Part shown: positions 54,776-61,275 of the stretch, in pieces | Numbering within the stretch: the first letter of the stretch is position 1 | Layout: each line of letters begins with the position of its first letter | NCBI RefSeq assembly: GCF_001999725.1 | Contig: NZ_MDDP01000034.1 | Coordinates: forward strand, 62,001 to 126,000 | DNA from: Cellulophaga omnivescoria | Lineage (GTDB): Bacteria; Bacteroidota; Bacteroidia; Flavobacteriales; Flavobacteriaceae | Direction of reading: 5' to 3' | Length of the DNA: 64,000 nucleotides | The notes under the pieces: model-generated | Told to the model about the DNA's origin: nothing | The model's database searches: none | Seen by the model: only the letters and a program-made list of their open reading frames with translations | Made by a program: the position numbers and the translations under genes

Positions 54776-55414
54776 ATGGCAAGTTTAAGATTGGGTGATG
54801 AAGCACCAGATTTTACTGCAGACAGTTCTGTAGGAACAATAAATTTTTACGATTATTTAGGAGATAGTTGGGGAATTCTTTTCTCTCACCCTGCAGACTT
54901 TACTCCTGTTTGCACAACAGAGTTAGGTACTGCCGCACAATTTAAAGATGAGTTTGATAAGCGTAACGTAAAAATGATTGCATTGAGTGTAGATGGTGCA
55001 GCTTCTCATAACGAGTGGATTAAAGACATTAATGAGGTGCAAAACACTACAGTAACTTTTCCTATAATTGCAGACGAAGACAAAAAAGTGTCTACCTTAT
55101 ATGATATGATACACCCTAACGCAGACAACCACTTAACAGTACGTTCTGTATTTATTGTTGGACCAGATAAAAGAGTAAAATTAACTCTTACCTACCCAGC
55201 ATCTACAGGCCGTAATTTTTATGAGTTGTTACGCGTAATAGACTCTTTACAACTTACAGCTAACCACAAAGTAGCTACACCAGCCAACTGGAAAAATGGC
55301 GAAAAAGTAGTTGTTAGTCCGGCTATTGCTACTAGCGATGCAGAAAAAATATTCTCTAAAGGAGTAGAAGAAATTAAACCTTACTTAAGGATGACACCAG
55401 ACCCTACTGCCTAA
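54776..55414 (+). CDS. 1-Cys peroxiredoxin (Prx6 type)
   Basis: A 212-residue peroxidase that reduces hydrogen peroxide and organic hydroperoxides. The active-site Cys46 lies in DFTPVCTTE, and no other Cys is present, so this is a 1-Cys enzyme needing an external reductant. The C-terminal extension with VATPANWKNGEKVVVSP and PYLRMTPDP is typical of the Prx6 group. It is transcribed alone, between dinB and the two-component genes, with its own terminator. Confidence 0.95.
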   Translation: MASLRLGDEAPDFTADSSVGTINFYDYLGDSWGILFSHPADFTPVCTTELGTAAQFKDEFDKRNVKMIALSVDGAASHNEWIKDINEVQNTTVTFPIIADEDKKVSTLYDMIHPNADNHLTVRSVFIVGPDKRVKLTLTYPASTGRNFYELLRVIDSLQLTANHKVATPANWKNGEKVVVSPAIATSDAEKIFSKGVEEIKPYLRMTPDPTA

Positions 55415-55437
55415 CAAAGTTGTTTGTATAAAACCTG

Positions 55438-55475
55438 GCTCTAGTAGACGTTTTGTTTACTAGAGCTATTTTTTT
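55438..55475 (+). terminator. intrinsic terminator after the peroxiredoxin gene
   Basis: GCTCTAGTA (55438-55446) pairs with TACTAGAGC (55458-55466), followed by TATTTTTTT. Confidence 0.82.
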
Positions 55476-55508
55476 ATAGTACATTTATCTTCCCTTAATT
55501 TTATAACT

Positions 55509-56600
55509 ATGGTAACAGCAGAAGAAAAACTTAGAGAGCGTATTAAAGAACTCACTTGTTTGTATGACGTTACTTCTATAATTGTTAATTGCGATTATAA
55601 TGAAATTGAAGTTGGTTTACAAGCTATTGTAGCTTGCTTAAAAAATGCTTGGCAATACATAAATGATACGTATGTTGTACTTAAAACCGATGAGTACCAT
55701 ATTGAAACTAAAAAAGAGCATAAAGACTATGTTTTTTTAACCTCTGCTATTACGTTATTTAATAAAGAAATTGGGACTATAAAAGTTGGTTACCCATCTA
55801 AAAAATACAGTATTTTAGATTTTCTTGAAGAAGAACAACAACTGCTAAATAATGTGTGTTTGGAGGTTGGCAACTTACTGGAGCGTAAAGAAATTAAGGA
55901 GAACGAAATTTTAATTAAAAGGCAAGTAGAACAATCAGACAGGTTACGTATACTTGGAGAAATTACGGCAGGCATAGCTCATGAACTAAATACACCTCTG
56001 GCTAATATTTTAGGGTTTGCAGAGCTTTTAAAAGACCGTACAAAAGAAGATGCACAAGCAACAAAAGATGTAGATAAAATTATAAATAGTGCCATTTACT
56101 CTAGAGAAGTGGTAAAAAAACTAATGTTTTTTGCTTGTGAAATGCCACAACAAAAAAGCTTGGTTAATATTATTCCTATTTGTAAAGAAGCTATTGAACT
56201 TTTAAAACCAATACTAAAAACAAAAAGTATTACTCTAAATATTACCTCTAGCAATCCTGAAATTGCTTTAAAAATAGACCGCATACAACTTACCCAAGTG
56301 CTATTTAACTTGGTTATAAATGCTATTTATTTTTCAGAAGAAAATGGTTTTATTGTATTAGATATAAAAGATAAATCTGCCGCAGTAGAAATGCATATAA
56401 AAGACCAAGGTACTGGTATAGATACTAATTTAGGTGATAAAATTTTTGAACCATTTTTTACCACCAAACCAGTAGGCGAAGGCTCTGGATTAGGACTAAG
56501 CGTAGTACACGGTATTGTTAAAAGTCATAAAGGAAACATAAGTTTTAGTGCCAATACACCAAAGGGCACTATATTTACTGTAACAATTCCTAAATTGTAA
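55509..56600 (+). CDS. soluble sensor histidine kinase (NtrB-like)
   Basis: A 363-residue kinase with no membrane segment. Residues about 1-125 look like a degenerate GAF-type sensor domain with Cys at positions 17 and 28 and others at 43 and 117. HisKA follows with the phosphoacceptor His158 in GEITAGIAHELNTPLANILG, then an HATPase domain with N box NLVINAI, DQGTGID and the final GSGLGLSVVHGI. It autophosphorylates and would activate the downstream sigma-54 activator, whose gene starts 3 nt after the stop. Sensed signal unknown. Confidence 0.93.
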   Translation: MVTAEEKLRERIKELTCLYDVTSIIVNCDYNEIEVGLQAIVACLKNAWQYINDTYVVLKTDEYHIETKKEHKDYVFLTSAITLFNKEIGTIKVGYPSKKYSILDFLEEEQQLLNNVCLEVGNLLERKEIKENEILIKRQVEQSDRLRILGEITAGIAHELNTPLANILGFAELLKDRTKEDAQATKDVDKIINSAIYSREVVKKLMFFACEMPQQKSLVNIIPICKEAIELLKPILKTKSITLNITSSNPEIALKIDRIQLTQVLFNLVINAIYFSEENGFIVLDIKDKSAAVEMHIKDQGTGIDTNLGDKIFEPFFTTKPVGEGSGLGLSVVHGIVKSHKGNISFSANTPKGTIFTVTIPKL

Positions 56601-56603
56601 AAA

Positions 56604-57926
56604 ATGGGATTAGAAAAAGAGAACATACTTATTGTAGATGATGACATTCATATACTAGAACTTTTACAACGTCATTTACAAGCTTTAAACTACCACGTTT
56701 ACAAAGCAGTGTCTGTAAAACAGGCATTGTATGTTTTGCATGACTCTGCTATAGATTTGTTAATAACAGATATACAAATGCCAGAGATTGATGGCCTGCA
56801 ACTATTAAAATATACCGCAGAACATTATCCAGAAATTCCTAAACTAGTAATTACAGGTTACCCGTCTGTAGATGATGCAATGAGCGTAATAAAAACTGGC
56901 GCTACAGATTACCTTACCAAACCATTTACAAAAGAAGAATTAAAACAGGCCGTAAATAGGTCTTTAGAAGCAGCCAAAAAAACAAAACAAACACAACAAA
57001 AAAAACCACTAATAACAACAGGTTACGGACAAATGATTGGGCAATCTGTTGCCTTTAAAAAAGTAACTCAAATTATAGAACGTGTAAAAGACAACAAGGC
57101 TACAGTTTTAATAGAAGGAGAAAGTGGCACTGGTAAAGAACTTGTGGCTAGGGCTATTCATTTTTCGGGTAAGTTTGCCAAGCAACCTTTTATTGCTGTT
57201 AATTGTGGTGCCATACCCGAGAACTTATTAGAATCTGAGCTCTTTGGCTATACAAAAGGAGCTTTTACAGGTGCTAACGAAAATAAAAATGGTTTTTTTC
57301 AGGCTGCAAATAACGGCACATTATTTTTAGATGAAATTGGCAATGCTTCTACTGCGGTACAGGCCAAATTACTACGTGCTTTACAAGAAAAAGAAATTAC
57401 AAAAGTAGGCTCACAAAAAGCAGAAAAAGTAGACTTGCGCATCATTGCTGCAACAAATAATAACTTACAAGAAGATATTGCCAACAAAACCTTTAGAGAA
57501 GATCTTTATTACAGGCTAACTGTAGTGCAAATAAACGTGCCACCATTACGAGAAAGAAAATCTGATATTCCGTTACTGGTAGAGCAGTTTTTAAAGAAAT
57601 ACGGTGTAGAATACAAAGACCGTTTATTACAAATTACAGATAATGCTTTAAAAATGCTACAAAGATACCATTGGCAAGGCAACATTAGAGAGCTAGAAAA
57701 TGTAATACAACGCGCTGTTATTATGAGCGATGGTATAATTGACACAAAAGATTTCCCTGATTATTTAAAGTATAAAATAGAGTTTCCAGACGCTTCTTTT
57801 ACAAGCCTACAGCAAATGGAAAAAGAATACATTTTAAAAGTATTAGCAGCTACAAATAACAATAAGACAAAGGCTGCAGAAATTCTTCAAATAGACCGTA
57901 AAACTTTACGTCAAAAATTAAAGTAA
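56604..57926 (+). CDS. sigma-54-dependent response regulator (NtrC family)
   Basis: A 440-residue activator. The receiver domain (1-120) has the phosphorylatable Asp56 in LLITDIQMP and acidic pocket VDDD. The AAA+ domain (about 145-375) holds Walker A GESGTGKEL, the sigma-54-contacting GAFTGA and Walker B LFLDEIG. A Fis-type helix-turn-helix ends the protein (about 395-440: NNNKTKAAEILQIDRKTLRQK). It is the partner of the upstream kinase. Downstream lie two palindromes, a sigma-54 promoter and the gdhA operon, its likely target. Confidence 0.95.
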   Translation: MGLEKENILIVDDDIHILELLQRHLQALNYHVYKAVSVKQALYVLHDSAIDLLITDIQMPEIDGLQLLKYTAEHYPEIPKLVITGYPSVDDAMSVIKTGATDYLTKPFTKEELKQAVNRSLEAAKKTKQTQQKKPLITTGYGQMIGQSVAFKKVTQIIERVKDNKATVLIEGESGTGKELVARAIHFSGKFAKQPFIAVNCGAIPENLLESELFGYTKGAFTGANENKNGFFQAANNGTLFLDEIGNASTAVQAKLLRALQEKEITKVGSQKAEKVDLRIIAATNNNLQEDIANKTFREDLYYRLTVVQINVPPLRERKSDIPLLVEQFLKKYGVEYKDRLLQITDNALKMLQRYHWQGNIRELENVIQRAVIMSDGIIDTKDFPDYLKYKIEFPDASFTSLQQMEKEYILKVLAATNNNKTKAAEILQIDRKTLRQKLK

Positions 57927-57931
57927 ACGCT

Positions 57932-57965
57932 GGGGTATTTTTCCCCGGCTGGGGCATTTCTCCCC
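57932..57965. promoter_or_regulatory. tandem palindromes, probable enhancer (UAS) for the sigma-54 activator
   Basis: Two GGGG-N7-CCCC palindromes: GGGG at 57932-57935 with CCCC at 57943-57946, and GGGG at 57951-57954 with CCCC at 57962-57965. The centres are 19 bp apart and lie about 97-116 bp upstream of the -24 element of the sigma-54 promoter at 58054, the usual distance for an NtrC-type enhancer. They start 6 bp after the activator gene's stop. Confidence 0.62.
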
Positions 57966-58053
57966 ACCTCATCTTTTCTTTAAAATTAATTTACCTCTTT
58001 TATTTAACTAGTAATCAACTACTTAAAATAAATCTGCATTTTTAAATCTTTTT

Positions 58054-58069
58054 AGGCACACAGCTTGCC
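58054..58069 (+). promoter_or_regulatory. sigma-54 (-24/-12) promoter
   Basis: The sequence AGGCACACAGCTTGCC carries GG at 58055-58056 and GC at 58067-58068, exactly 10 bases apart, with the CAC and TTGC context of the sigma-54 consensus. It would start transcription near 58080, reading the four-gene gdhA operon. Confidence 0.75.
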
Positions 58070-58135
58070 AATACATACACAAGTAAGTTATTATAAAAAT
58101 GATATTAGATTTTTATAGTTGATTGATTGATTTGT

Positions 58136-58195
58136 CTACTTGGCTTTCTAAATGTTTAACTCAAGTGGTGTGGTTTTTTTGTGAAAGTCAAGTAG
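58136..58195 (+). promoter_or_regulatory. leader hairpin upstream of the gdhA operon
   Basis: CTACTTGGCTTTC (58136-58148) pairs with GAAAGTCAAGTAG (58183-58195), a 13-bp stem with one G-U pair. It lies in the roughly 140-base leader between the sigma-54 promoter and the first gene. The 34-base loop holds a further CTCAAG half-site. No T-run follows, so it is not a terminator; it could be a protein site or a regulatory structure. Confidence 0.5.
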
Positions 58196-58221
58196 CATTT
58201 TAATAGTCTAAATACAAGGTA

Positions 58222-58389
58222 ATGATAAAAATAATTGAAAAGAGCCTTTGCAATACTTGTGAGCACGAGCGACTTTGTGTACTAACAAAAAATAAAAATT
58301 CTATATACAACTGTAGCGATTATCAACAAGGGACAAATGAAGACTTTGATCTAAAAAAAGAAGATAAAACAGAATTAGTTTTAAATTAA
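58222..58389 (+). CDS. small four-cysteine protein (55 residues)
   Basis: A 55-residue frame from ATG 58222. It contains C-x2-C-x5-C-x11-C (Cys10, 13, 19 and 31), a spacing suited to a zinc or iron-sulfur site, and an acidic C-terminal tail (NEDFDLKKEDKTE). It is the first cistron after the sigma-54 promoter and ends 5 nt before gdhA, with no competing frame on either strand. It is too short for common gene finders. No family is recognised. Conservation in relatives has not been checked here, so reality rests on position and composition. Confidence 0.62.
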   Translation: MIKIIEKSLCNTCEHERLCVLTKNKNSIYNCSDYQQGTNEDFDLKKEDKTELVLN

Positions 58390-58394
58390 ATATA

Positions 58395-59678
58395 ATGATA
58401 ACAAAACAGCAGAAAAAGTTGAAGCAAGGGATGCTAGATAATGTTATGCGACAATTTAATTATAGCGCAGACAACATAAACTTAAATCCTAATATTAGAA
58501 AAATATTAAGCATCACTAACAACGAGCTAGTTGTACATTTTCCTGTAAAGATGGATAATGGAGATGTAGAAGTATTTACAGGCTATAGAGTACAACATAA
58601 CAATGCACTTGGCCCGTATAAAGGTGGTTTGCGTTATCACCCAACTGTAGATATAGATGCCGCAAGAGCTTTGGCTATGTGGATGACCTGGAAAACCTCT
58701 TTAGCTGGCTTACCTTATGGTGGTGCAAAAGGTGGTATACAGTTAGACCCTAGCAAGTACTCCCAAGCAGAGTTAGAGCGTATTACTAGGAGATTTACCT
58801 TTGCTTTAGGAGATAATATTGGTCCGGAATTAGATATTCCTGCACCAGATGTTAATACAAATCCGCAAACAATGGCGTGGATTTTAGACACTTATATGTC
58901 TACAAAAGCACCATCAGAACGTTCTAAAAATATGCACGTGGTTACAGGTAAGCCTGTGGGCGCTGGCGGTTCTGAAGGTAGAGACAGAGCTACGGGTTAT
59001 GGTGTGTTTTTAAGTATAAAATTTTGGGCAGAAAGTAAAAAAGTAAGTCTAAAAGATAAAAAATACATTGTACAAGGTTTTGGTAATGTTGGTTACTGGA
59101 CTTCTCATTTTTTAGAAAATGAAGGTGCAATTTTAGTTGGTGTACAAGATGCATCTGGCACTATTATGAATGAAAACGGAATTTCTGTTGAAGATTTATT
59201 TAAACATACAATAGAACACAAAGGTGCCATAGCTGGGTTTGAGGATGCCACGCCAATATTAAACGAAAACTTTTTTGGTATTAATTGCGATATCTGTGTA
59301 CCAGCTGCTTTGGGTAACCAAATAACAGCTAACAATGCAGACAGTATTAAAGCCTTTTTAATTGCTGAAGGTGCAAACGGACCAACAGATGTTGAAGCTG
59401 AAAAAATATTACTAGAAAAAGGTGTAGCTATTATACCAGATATTTTATGTAATTCTGGTGGTGTAATTGGTAGTTATTATGAGTGGTTACAAAATAGAAA
59501 CGGAGAAATTTGGCAGCTTGATGAAGTATTAGAAAAAATGCATAAAAAACTAAAAGAATCTTTTAATAAGGTAATGAAAACTGCTTTAGAAAAAGATATA
59601 GACATGCGTACTGCCGCCTTTAACATTGCCATAGAACGTTTAGAACAAGCTTATGTACAAAGAGGAATTTTTCCATAA
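58395..59678 (+). CDS. gdhA: glutamate dehydrogenase
   Basis: A 427-residue hexameric-type Glu/Leu/Phe/Val dehydrogenase that interconverts glutamate and 2-oxoglutarate plus ammonia. The N-terminal substrate domain has GPYKGGLRYHPTVD with the catalytic Lys in PYGGAKGGI. The dinucleotide-binding part has VQGFGNVG (about 219-226), and the C-terminal domain has ILCNSGGVIGSYYEWLQN. It is the second gene of the putative sigma-54-controlled operon, so nitrogen or energy status is a sensible regulatory signal. Confidence 0.95.
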   Translation: MITKQQKKLKQGMLDNVMRQFNYSADNINLNPNIRKILSITNNELVVHFPVKMDNGDVEVFTGYRVQHNNALGPYKGGLRYHPTVDIDAARALAMWMTWKTSLAGLPYGGAKGGIQLDPSKYSQAELERITRRFTFALGDNIGPELDIPAPDVNTNPQTMAWILDTYMSTKAPSERSKNMHVVTGKPVGAGGSEGRDRATGYGVFLSIKFWAESKKVSLKDKKYIVQGFGNVGYWTSHFLENEGAILVGVQDASGTIMNENGISVEDLFKHTIEHKGAIAGFEDATPILNENFFGINCDICVPAALGNQITANNADSIKAFLIAEGANGPTDVEAEKILLEKGVAIIPDILCNSGGVIGSYYEWLQNRNGEIWQLDEVLEKMHKKLKESFNKVMKTALEKDIDMRTAAFNIAIERLEQAYVQRGIFP

Positions 59679-59692
59679 ATAACAGAAAAGAG

Positions 59693-60115
59693 ATGATGAA
59701 ATACGGAGGCTTAATTATTGAAAAAAAAGAATATGTGTTGCTTAAAAAATTGATGACCCTGTCTGGTTATCATAAAGATACAACATACAAAAAATCTATT
59801 GCTAAGCTTAATATGGAGCTAAAGACTGCTATTGTAAAAGACGATAAAGATATGCCTACAGATGTAATCAGGTTTAACTCTATTGTTACAGTTACAGCAG
59901 AAGAAGGATGGCAAAAGAGTTTTCAGCTAGTTAAGCCTTCAGATAGTGATTTAAAAAACCAAAAGTTATCAATTTTAACTCCTATGGGCGCTGCTGTAAT
60001 TGGCTATGCAAAAGGTGATACTCTTTTATGGGAGTTCCCATCAGGAGAAAAAAACCTCACGGTAACCAATGTAAAACAAAAAAATAATTACATAGATATA
60101 AATACATTGGTATGA
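59693..60115 (+). CDS. GreA/GreB C-terminal-domain protein (Rnk-like)
   Basis: A 140-residue protein. The C-terminal FKBP-like domain of the GreA/Rnk family is visible in IRFNSIVTVTA, LVKPSDSDLKNQKLSILTPMGAAVIGYAKGDTLLW and the end of the domain. The GreA coiled-coil with its catalytic acidic tip is absent, so cleavage stimulation like GreA is unlikely; Rnk-type RNA polymerase binding is more plausible. The 4-nt overlap (ATGA) with the next gene and 14 nt from gdhA place it inside the operon. Confidence 0.82.
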   Translation: MMKYGGLIIEKKEYVLLKKLMTLSGYHKDTTYKKSIAKLNMELKTAIVKDDKDMPTDVIRFNSIVTVTAEEGWQKSFQLVKPSDSDLKNQKLSILTPMGAAVIGYAKGDTLLWEFPSGEKNLTVTNVKQKNNYIDINTLV

Positions 60116-60498
60116 GTGCAAAATTGTTTTACAACCACGAGGAAGACCGCAGTATAATGATGAAAAAAGACAAAGAAGAACTGCGTAATTGGATAAATAA
60201 TTTAGAGTTTATTGCTAAAGAATTAAGGTATTTAATAGAGATAGAAAGCCGTATTGCCAATCAAAAAACCATAAAACAAGAGCTGTATAACTTACAAAAA
60301 GAAAATACAGAAATGGTAGTAGAAATGCGCAGATATAACAATACTACACTTGGTAAGTTAGAATGTGACACTGTAGAGTGTGATGCCTTTTATCTTGAAA
60401 ATCACGAAAAAAAAAGAACCGAATACTTAGCTTTTATACAAAAATATAGGCTAACTAAAACCAAGACTTTTTCTTTGATTTTACTTAAAACCGCATAA
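60112..60498 (+). CDS. unknown protein with coiled-coil and Cys pair
   Basis: A 128-residue soluble protein with a helical, Glu/Lys-rich character (about 20-75, KEELRNWINNLEFIAKELRYLI and KENTEMVVEMRRY), suggesting a coiled coil. It has a Cys pair LECDTVECDA (about 87-96) and a basic end. The start overlaps the Rnk-like gene by 4 nt (ATGA). Another ATG at 60157 is possible. It is the last gene before a strong terminator and seems part of the gdhA operon. Function unknown. Confidence 0.7.
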   Translation: MSAKLFYNHEEDRSIMMKKDKEELRNWINNLEFIAKELRYLIEIESRIANQKTIKQELYNLQKENTEMVVEMRRYNNTTLGKLECDTVECDAFYLENHEKKRTEYLAFIQKYRLTKTKTFSLILLKTA

Positions 60499-60567
60499 AT
60501 TATATAAGAAGGTTTTTATAAGTTAACCCTTCTTACTATAACTAGGTTTTTGCATTTAGGCCTAGAT

Positions 60568-60604
60568 AGAACACAACGGTGGGGGCTGTTGTGTTCTTTT
60601 TTTT
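60568..60604 (+). terminator. intrinsic terminator of the gdhA operon
   Basis: AGAACACAAC (60568-60577) pairs with GTTGTGTTCT (60588-60597), followed by an eight-base T-run. A weaker imperfect hairpin precedes it near 60508. Confidence 0.9.
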
Positions 60605-60612
60605 AAACTTTT

Positions 60613-61275
60613 TTACACTTGCCTACCATCTAATAAGTTTATTGTTCTGGAGGCGTATGCTGCATTTTTTTCTGAGTGTGTAACCTGTATTATTGTTACG
60701 CCTTCTTTATTTAACTCTTTAAAAATCTCCATAATTTCTTCGCCTTGCTTAGAATTTAGGTTGCCTGTTGGCTCATCTGCTAAAATAAGTTTTGGATTAG
60801 ATATTAATGCCCTAGCAATACCTACCAACTGCTGTTGACCACCACTAAGCTGACTTGGAAATAGGTTTTGCTTGCCTACAATATTAAATTTATCTAGCAT
60901 ATCTGCTACCAATGCTTTACGCTCAGACGAGCTATACTTTTTATATAATAAAGGCATTTCTAAGTTTTCATACACCGTAAGTTCATCTAATAAATGATAG
61001 GCCTGAAAAACAAAACCAATGTATTGCTTATACAAATTAGAGCGGTGTTTTTCTTTTAAATTATGAACGGAGTCTTCTAAAAAATTATATTCACCTTCAT
61101 TAAATACATCTAACATACCAATAATATTTAACAAGGTTGATTTTCCAGAACCAGACGGCCCCATTATGGAAATAAACTCGCCTTCTTCTACTTTTAAATT
61201 GATGTCTTTTAACAAAAATATTTTTTGCCCGCCAGACTGTACCCATTTGTATATATGGTTTAATTCTAATAACAT
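60613..61275 (-). CDS. ABC transporter ATP-binding protein (MacB/LolD-type)
   Basis: A 220-residue ATPase subunit with Walker A GPSGSGKST (about 39-47), the ABC signature LSGGQQQLVGIARAL (about 143-157) and Walker B LILADEPTGNLNS. It belongs to the group that drives MacB- or LolD-like extraction of lipoproteins or export of antimicrobials. Two FtsX/MacB-type permeases lie upstream on the same strand, 11 nt from this gene, so the unit is one transporter with two permeases. The substrate is unknown. Confidence 0.92.
   Translation of the reverse strand: MLLELNHIYKWVQSGGQKIFLLKDINLKVEEGEFISIMGPSGSGKSTLLNIIGMLDVFNEGEYNFLEDSVHNLKEKHRSNLYKQYIGFVFQAYHLLDELTVYENLEMPLLYKKYSSSERKALVADMLDKFNIVGKQNLFPSQLSGGQQQLVGIARALISNPKLILADEPTGNLNSKQGEEIMEIFKELNKEGVTIIQVTHSEKNAAYASRTINLLDGRQV

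Follow-up and report, generated by a model that had tools for sequence, protein, structure and literature searches.

A predicted sigma-54 two-component circuit at a glutamate dehydrogenase operon of Cellulophaga omnivescoria and its relatives

Does a histidine kinase and NtrC-type activator pair in Cellulophaga omnivescoria control the operon that lies directly downstream of it? The question is raised by a 64,000-nucleotide stretch of contig NZ_MDDP01000034.1 (assembly GCF_001999725.1, positions 62,001 to 126,000; hereafter the window), in which the pair is followed by two GC-rich palindromes (dyads), a predicted sigma-54 promoter and genes for a 55-residue cysteine-motif protein (C55), a glutamate dehydrogenase (GDH), an Rnk-like protein and a 128-residue protein (U128). 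A first-pass annotation of this DNA had proposed that the pair directly controls the operon. Judging from sequence, we consider it very probable that the C55-GDH-Rnk-like-U128 operon is driven by its own, largely local sigma-54 two-component circuit. Sequence and comparison establish the genes and the DNA elements, as well as the way in which these are conserved and lost together. Conserved order, dyads and spacing argue for the proposed control; in some relatives the pair stands apart from this GDH.

Dyads, promoter and gene order across relatives

The pattern GGGG-N7-CCCC occurs exactly twice in the window, as two exact dyads at 57932-57965 that correspond to the tandem palindromes of the first-pass annotation; none of 100 shuffles contained two. 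Allowing at most one mismatch, the tandem pattern is found at this site only in the whole genome (backward control 0); other places appear at three mismatches, in a search for tandem rather than single dyads. The regions behind the genome's three other activators reach a tandem score of just 7/16. The promoter pattern GGCAC-N5-TTGC, described as near-consensus in the first-pass annotation, is present at 58055-58068 and by itself is not significant in the window, where 56/100 shuffles had at least one match; genome-wide it has 29 matches against 13 for the backward control. We therefore dropped the pattern alone as evidence, and the evidential weight of the promoter lies in its conservation. 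Sequence and conservation together suggest a -24/-12 promoter with a candidate enhancer roughly 100 bp ahead of it, and transcription would be expected to start near 58080.

To compare this arrangement we assembled 99 loci, made up of the window, 32 loci of a set of 149 Flavobacteriaceae genomes (33 of which, the source genome counted, have a kinase orthologue) and 66 of the best 80 matches of a named-genome scan, leaving out weaker, mostly kinase-core matches (L200-L213). A complete adjacent activator is present in 94/99, and removal of 4 duplicates at 90% kinase identity left 90 loci, 71 close (kinase identity at least 44%) and 19 distant. Within 4.2 kb after the activator, tblastn finds GDH in 57/71 close loci, the Rnk-like gene in 60/71, U128 in 49/71 and C55 in 43/71; the corresponding numbers for the distant loci are 8/19, 0/19, 0/19 and 7/19. 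A motif scan raises C55 to 45/71 close and 9/19 distant loci.

The DNA elements were scored over the first 350 nt past the activator stop, using a general sigma-54 promoter consensus with position weights. The sigma-54 score reaches at least 0.9 in 44/71 close loci and at least 0.95 in 28/71 (shuffles 0.89% and 0.07%), and the tandem dyad scores at least 12/16 in 33/71 (shuffles 0.14%) and at least 13/16 in 17/71 (shuffles 0). Among 18 distant loci (L182 being too short), 8 have a promoter of at least 0.9 (shuffles 1.76%) and 9 a tandem dyad of at least 13/16 (shuffles 0.93%). Both loose thresholds are passed by 44/71 close loci; the distance from first dyad to promoter is 121-126 bp in 39/44 of these (98, 111, 111, 134 and 135 bp in the remaining 5), and the second dyad lies 19 bp from the first in 37/44. 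The set can also move. It is displaced downstream as a unit in L048, L050 and L144, with spacings of 124, 123 and 124. In three further loci the best promoter is more remote, 1443 nt past the activator in L056, 483 nt in L059 and 1010 nt in L061, and each of these promoters is preceded at about 106 bp by a GGG...CCC dyad (tandem scores 11-12, in a scan restricted to spacings 111-130). Most close loci keep both the gene order and the palindromes, with tight spacing; the first-pass annotation had named their absence from relatives as an outcome that would count against it.

Kinase and GDH also tend to occur in the same genomes. For this GDH class (at least 67% identity), 30 of the 149 genomes have both genes, 3 the kinase only, 4 the GDH only and 112 neither (Fisher p 9e-24, from a test that ignores phylogeny). 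The three kinase-only genomes (G002, G084, G087) still carry the Rnk-like gene beside the pair. The four GDH-only genomes, defined by the presence of this GDH and a kinase not detected, have no C55 by tblastn and neither a promoter of at least 0.9 nor a tandem dyad in the 700 nt that precede GDH, where the best promoters score 0.87, 0.69, 0.73 and 0.76 and the tandem scores are 9, 7, 9 and 9 of 16. Within the genus (18 genomes), 13 have the GDH, 14 the kinase, 13 both and 4 neither, and among 30 genomes without a kinase match this GDH was found at E<=1e-60 in 2, both at 41% identity. One genome, G011, provides a relocation: its C55-GDH operon lies on a separate contig from the kinase and is preceded by a 7/8 dyad (GGGTAATTTTTCCCC), placed about where dyad 2 lies in other loci. 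The tandem score there is 12/16, and the partner dyad is therefore poor; a weak promoter match (0.79) follows 103 bp past the dyad.

Several observations weigh against local control of the operon. Besides the phylogeny-blind co-occurrence test, 27/71 close loci have no promoter of at least 0.9 within 350 nt and 30/71 have a tandem score below 11/16. None of the four targets was found by tblastn within 4.2 kb in 7/71 close loci (some on short contigs, including L136), among them the Flavobacterium loci L166 and L172; the same holds for 9/19 distant loci, some of which also have short contigs. In some Flavobacterium loci the pair is adjoined by other neighbours, not GDH, and L165 showed no activator match. 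The kinase-negative L244 has a promoter score of 0.87 ahead of its GDH, higher than the 0.79 in G011; single-locus promoter scores therefore do not discriminate. Finally, a sigma-70-like match (10/12) at 58065-58094 overlaps the sigma-54 promoter; the scan as a whole yielded a chance-level number of matches (22 vs 20.2). A Bacteroidota-type housekeeping promoter gave no match in 57453-58774 at the single spacing tried.

The locus and its proteins

The layout is listed in Table 1. Open reading frame coordinates and Pfam domains agree with the first-pass description of a kinase and an NtrC-type activator 3 nt apart, and all four operon genes (a Cys protein, GDH, a GreA/Rnk-like protein and an unknown) lie exactly where they had been placed. 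C55 and GDH are separated by 5 nt, GDH and the Rnk-like gene by 14 nt, and the Rnk-like gene overlaps U128 by 4 nt. The closing terminator was likewise recovered as a 13-pair terminator-like hairpin with a T run; the scan found 4 terminator-like hairpins in total, close to the shuffle mean of 2.8.

Table 1. Features of the locus, in window coordinates.
Feature	Position	Strand	Description
Histidine kinase, 363 aa	55509..56600	+	compact GAF-like sensor (about 1-124), HisKA with invariant H158, HATPase_c
NtrC-type response regulator, 440 aa	56604..57926	+	REC, sigma-54-interacting AAA+ (GAFTGA), Fis-type HTH
Proposed enhancer dyad 1, GGGGTATTTTTCCCC	57932..57946	.	GGGG-N7-CCCC pattern and conservation
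Proposed enhancer dyad 2, GGGGCATTTCTCCCC	57951..57965	.	19 bp from dyad 1; pattern and conservation
Predicted sigma-54 promoter GGCAC-ACAGC-TTGC (-24/-12)	58055..58068	+	pattern and conservation
Leader hairpin	58136..58195	+	arms 58136-58148 / 58183-58195, 13 pairs including one G-U
C55, 55-aa protein	58222..58389	+	CxxCx5C...CSDY motif
GDH, 427 aa	58395..59678	+	Thermotoga/RocG-like class
Rnk-like protein, 140 aa	59693..60115	+	GreA/GreB C-terminal domain
U128, 128-aa protein	60112..60498	+	reaches no family cut-off
Terminator-like hairpin and T run	60568..60604	+	13 pairs, hairpin 60568-60597

The kinase passes the Pfam cut-offs for HisKA and HATPase_c and the activator those for REC, Sigma54_activat and the Fis HTH, with the GAFTGA motif read by eye. 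Among NCBIfam models the kinase core is closest to AtoS/ZraS and the activator to AtoC/NtrC/ZraR; all equivalog cut-offs are missed, by the kinase for AtoS (165.8 vs 646 bits) and ZraS (141.1 vs 479) and by the activator for NtrC (NR(I); 400.6 vs 558.6), AtoC (406.8 vs 714) and ZraR (396.3 vs 760). Among PDB folds the ZraS core is the best match to the kinase, whose structure model shows no membrane segment. Its sensor domain has no Pfam match. The AlphaFold model of this domain is compact and confident (mean pLDDT 93.4), and Foldseek gave weak matches (best E 2.1e-3), ranks 1-4 of which are GAF domains of NifA-like proteins. Sensor residues E10, K13, E14, L15 and C17 are invariant across 45 kinases. 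The genome has one rpoN match and four strong matches to sigma-54 activators.

The GDH exceeds the Pfam cut-offs for ELFV_dehydrog and its N-domain. The nearest solved chain is Thermotoga GDH, with Bacillus subtilis NAD-GDHs lower in the list, so that the first-pass label gdhA can be refined to a Thermotoga/RocG-like class, one of several ELFV-dehydrogenase matches in the genome. Two further such matches were found: a stronger one, and one at G000:C46:188710-189393 that is interrupted by an internal TAA stop. The Rnk-like protein matches E. coli Rnk (PDB 3bmb) by sequence and has a GreA/GreB C-terminal-like domain; it differs from Rnk in its place in a GDH operon and in missing the NCBIfam Rnk model PRK05753 (83.1 vs 109 bits). 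Neither C55 nor U128 passes a family cut-off in Pfam or NCBIfam.

Mechanism, signal and known systems

Phosphotransfer, dyad binding and sigma-54 activation would follow by analogy with known NtrC-type biology. The cytosolic kinase would sense an intracellular condition via its compact GAF-like domain and phosphorylate the activator, which would bind the tandem dyads, located some 100-120 bp ahead of the -24/-12 promoter, and remodel RNA polymerase-sigma-54, leading to transcription of C55, the second GDH, the Rnk-like gene and U128. The GDH may then shift glutamate and reducing equivalents, the Rnk/GreA-C-like product may act on or adjust RNA polymerase, and in the genus a further, post-transcriptional step of control may come from the leader hairpin.

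The distant loci bear on the signal. A sample of the phylum, with full-length kinases in 9/395 genomes, all Flavobacteriaceae, had suggested a kinase restricted to that family; we rejected this because the named-genome scan returned distant full-length kinases elsewhere. The pair is kept in all 19 distant loci, 3 with Bacteroidota-type titles and 16 titled outside Bacteroidota or unassigned, many of them metagenome bins (Cloacimonadota, Aminicenantes, Phycisphaerales, WOR-3, Victivallaceae, Coatesbacteria, FCB group, several Deltaproteobacteria/desulfo-lineages and 'bacterium'). By tblastn, L173, L179, L181, L186 and L188 carry both C55 and GDH behind the pair, and L181 and L182 have an additional ELFV-dehydrogenase fragment upstream. 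The first 400 residues of the L191 GDH score above the cut-off of the NADP-specific model (557 vs 536 bits), placing it in a different GDH class; this locus also has a NapC/NirT-type cytochrome. By Pfam, a NuoE-like gene lies downstream of the pair in L176 and a NuoF-like gene in L190 and L199; L177 and L192 look alike by eye to the loci with Nuo-like genes. Because of these neighbours (NuoE/NuoF-like genes, cytochrome, GDHs), we tentatively guess that the kinase responds to redox or energy state. A broader picture, which we regard as speculative and unlikely, would be an ancient cross-phylum circuit in which redox or energy sensing by the GAF-like kinase, with its invariant ELTC/ELSC/ELAC-type Cys, would act through a conserved GGGG-N7-CCCC sigma-54 enhancer on electron-balancing enzymes (two GDH classes, NuoE/NuoF-like proteins, cytochromes), with C55, in one locus fused to a NuoE-like frame, as a metal-binding redox partner and the Cellulophaga leader RNA as a second layer of control.

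A somewhat less likely signal is general stress or starvation, by analogy with Desulfovibrio vulgaris, where DVU3304/DVU3305 act on UspA-domain genes. A family f4 gene lies downstream of the pair in 8/33 loci, its tested member being a universal stress protein, and DVU3305 is described as stress-related by Rajeev 2011. Against this, no Lon-type catalytic motif was found in any frame of the 90 loci, within limited flanks. In D. vulgaris, DVU3303-3305 are described as including a kinase and a sigma-54 regulator whose targets are adjacent genes, UspA-domain genes among them (PMC3333781); compared by description, that system differs in including a Lon-domain regulator.

We think it unlikely that the circuit serves nitrogen, the pair replacing NtrBC functionally, sensing nitrogen or glutamine, and using GDH for ammonium assimilation or glutamate breakdown. 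The activator is of NtrC type and two GDH classes occur as partners, but it misses the NCBIfam NtrC cut-off, and the Rnk-like, universal stress protein, NuoE/NuoF-like and NapC/NirT-type cytochrome neighbours do not point to nitrogen alone. It is very improbable that the dyads chiefly terminate or autoregulate the kinase-activator operon and that the promoter match is incidental: they lie directly behind the activator gene and dyad 2 scores as a weak terminator-like hairpin (5 pairs), but the dyad-promoter spacing is fixed in 39/44 loci, the set stands further downstream in L048, L050, L144, L056, L059 and L061, and a dyad precedes the relocated operon of G011.

Circuits of the sigma-54 two-component kind are already known, and this example is apparently undescribed: a literature search, with most subscription papers outside it, found no published account of this kinase, dyad site or operon, and little on sigma-54 activators in these bacteria. 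ZraSR, AtoSC and NtrBC supply the nearest models for kinase core and activator; the Cellulophaga pair differs in missing their cut-offs and in having a compact GAF-like sensor, its own dyad motif and its own operon. RocR, the regulator of rocG, is a one-component activator. For B. subtilis, control of this GDH gene by sigma-54 (SigL) and an enhancer is reported, which a reference title places downstream of the gene (PMC3162934). As far as that source goes, the two systems share a GDH under sigma-54 and an enhancer, B. subtilis NAD-GDHs being among the relatives of this GDH, and differ in that the Cellulophaga locus has a two-component pair, upstream tandem dyads and another operon. The GDH of Geobacter sulfurreducens, GSU1305, was RpoN-dependent by microarray, and the portion of that paper available names no activator, kinase or site for it (PMC2725144); a further study predicts sigma-54 control of GDH for Bacillota (PMC12316311).

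At the Cellulophaga locus the predicted activator, site, promoter and target stand side by side, and natural losses in relatives and a single case of relocation provide controls. If the proposed circuit is real, GDH control in many marine Flavobacteriaceae and a cross-phylum regulatory module become directly testable, the uniform cis motif could be used to find further members, and an undescribed Cys-motif family, C55, would be tied to a defined operon.

Leader hairpin and variable neighbours

A predicted hairpin between promoter and C55 is present in 11/13 congener loci with this GDH, the window included; it was not seen in the other two, both with short leaders. Its left arm (CTACTTGGCTTTC) is almost invariant across the 11 loci. 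Eleven alignment cells depart from the commonest pair, 10 of them by a U-A to U-G change that keeps pairing and one by breaking the last pair (L224, whose leader is identical to that of L134, Cellulophaga sp. F20128). No pair changed on both sides, and there is therefore no compensatory evidence. The whole leader folds modestly better than shuffles (z -2.05, 8/200). A hairpin model searched against 18 congener genomes gave one match each in 12, of which 11 are strong and all at this operon, as expected because the model was built from them; no further strong copy was found in these genomes. A weak match in G551 (E 0.148) lies by eye inside a long reading frame and was taken as chance. Rfam gave 0 matches with E<=1 in 55400-60700, and a known riboswitch was dropped as a reading of the leader.

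In L056, L059, L063, L065, L068, L070 and L153 the stretch from dyads to promoter contains an inverted repeat, built around ACCCTT...AAGGGT, that looks terminator-like by eye. The NuoE-like frame of L176 begins about 863 nt past the activator stop and ends in the C55 motif, an apparent fusion. The kinase-activator pair of L178 is flanked by two GreA/Rnk-like genes on the opposite strand, of which one reaches the Pfam cut-off while a 90-residue fragment of the other fails it. The f4 genes were seen in L041, L057, L060, L061, L063, L065, L067 and L070, among 33 annotated loci, with Pfam assignment based on the first 200 residues of one member. A second family, f5 (113-121 aa, signal-peptide-like start; no Pfam match for the member tested), occurs in L041, L044, L046, L055, L062 and L064. 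The f5 gene of L046 directly follows the dyads and promoter, and the GDH operon of that genome lies elsewhere.

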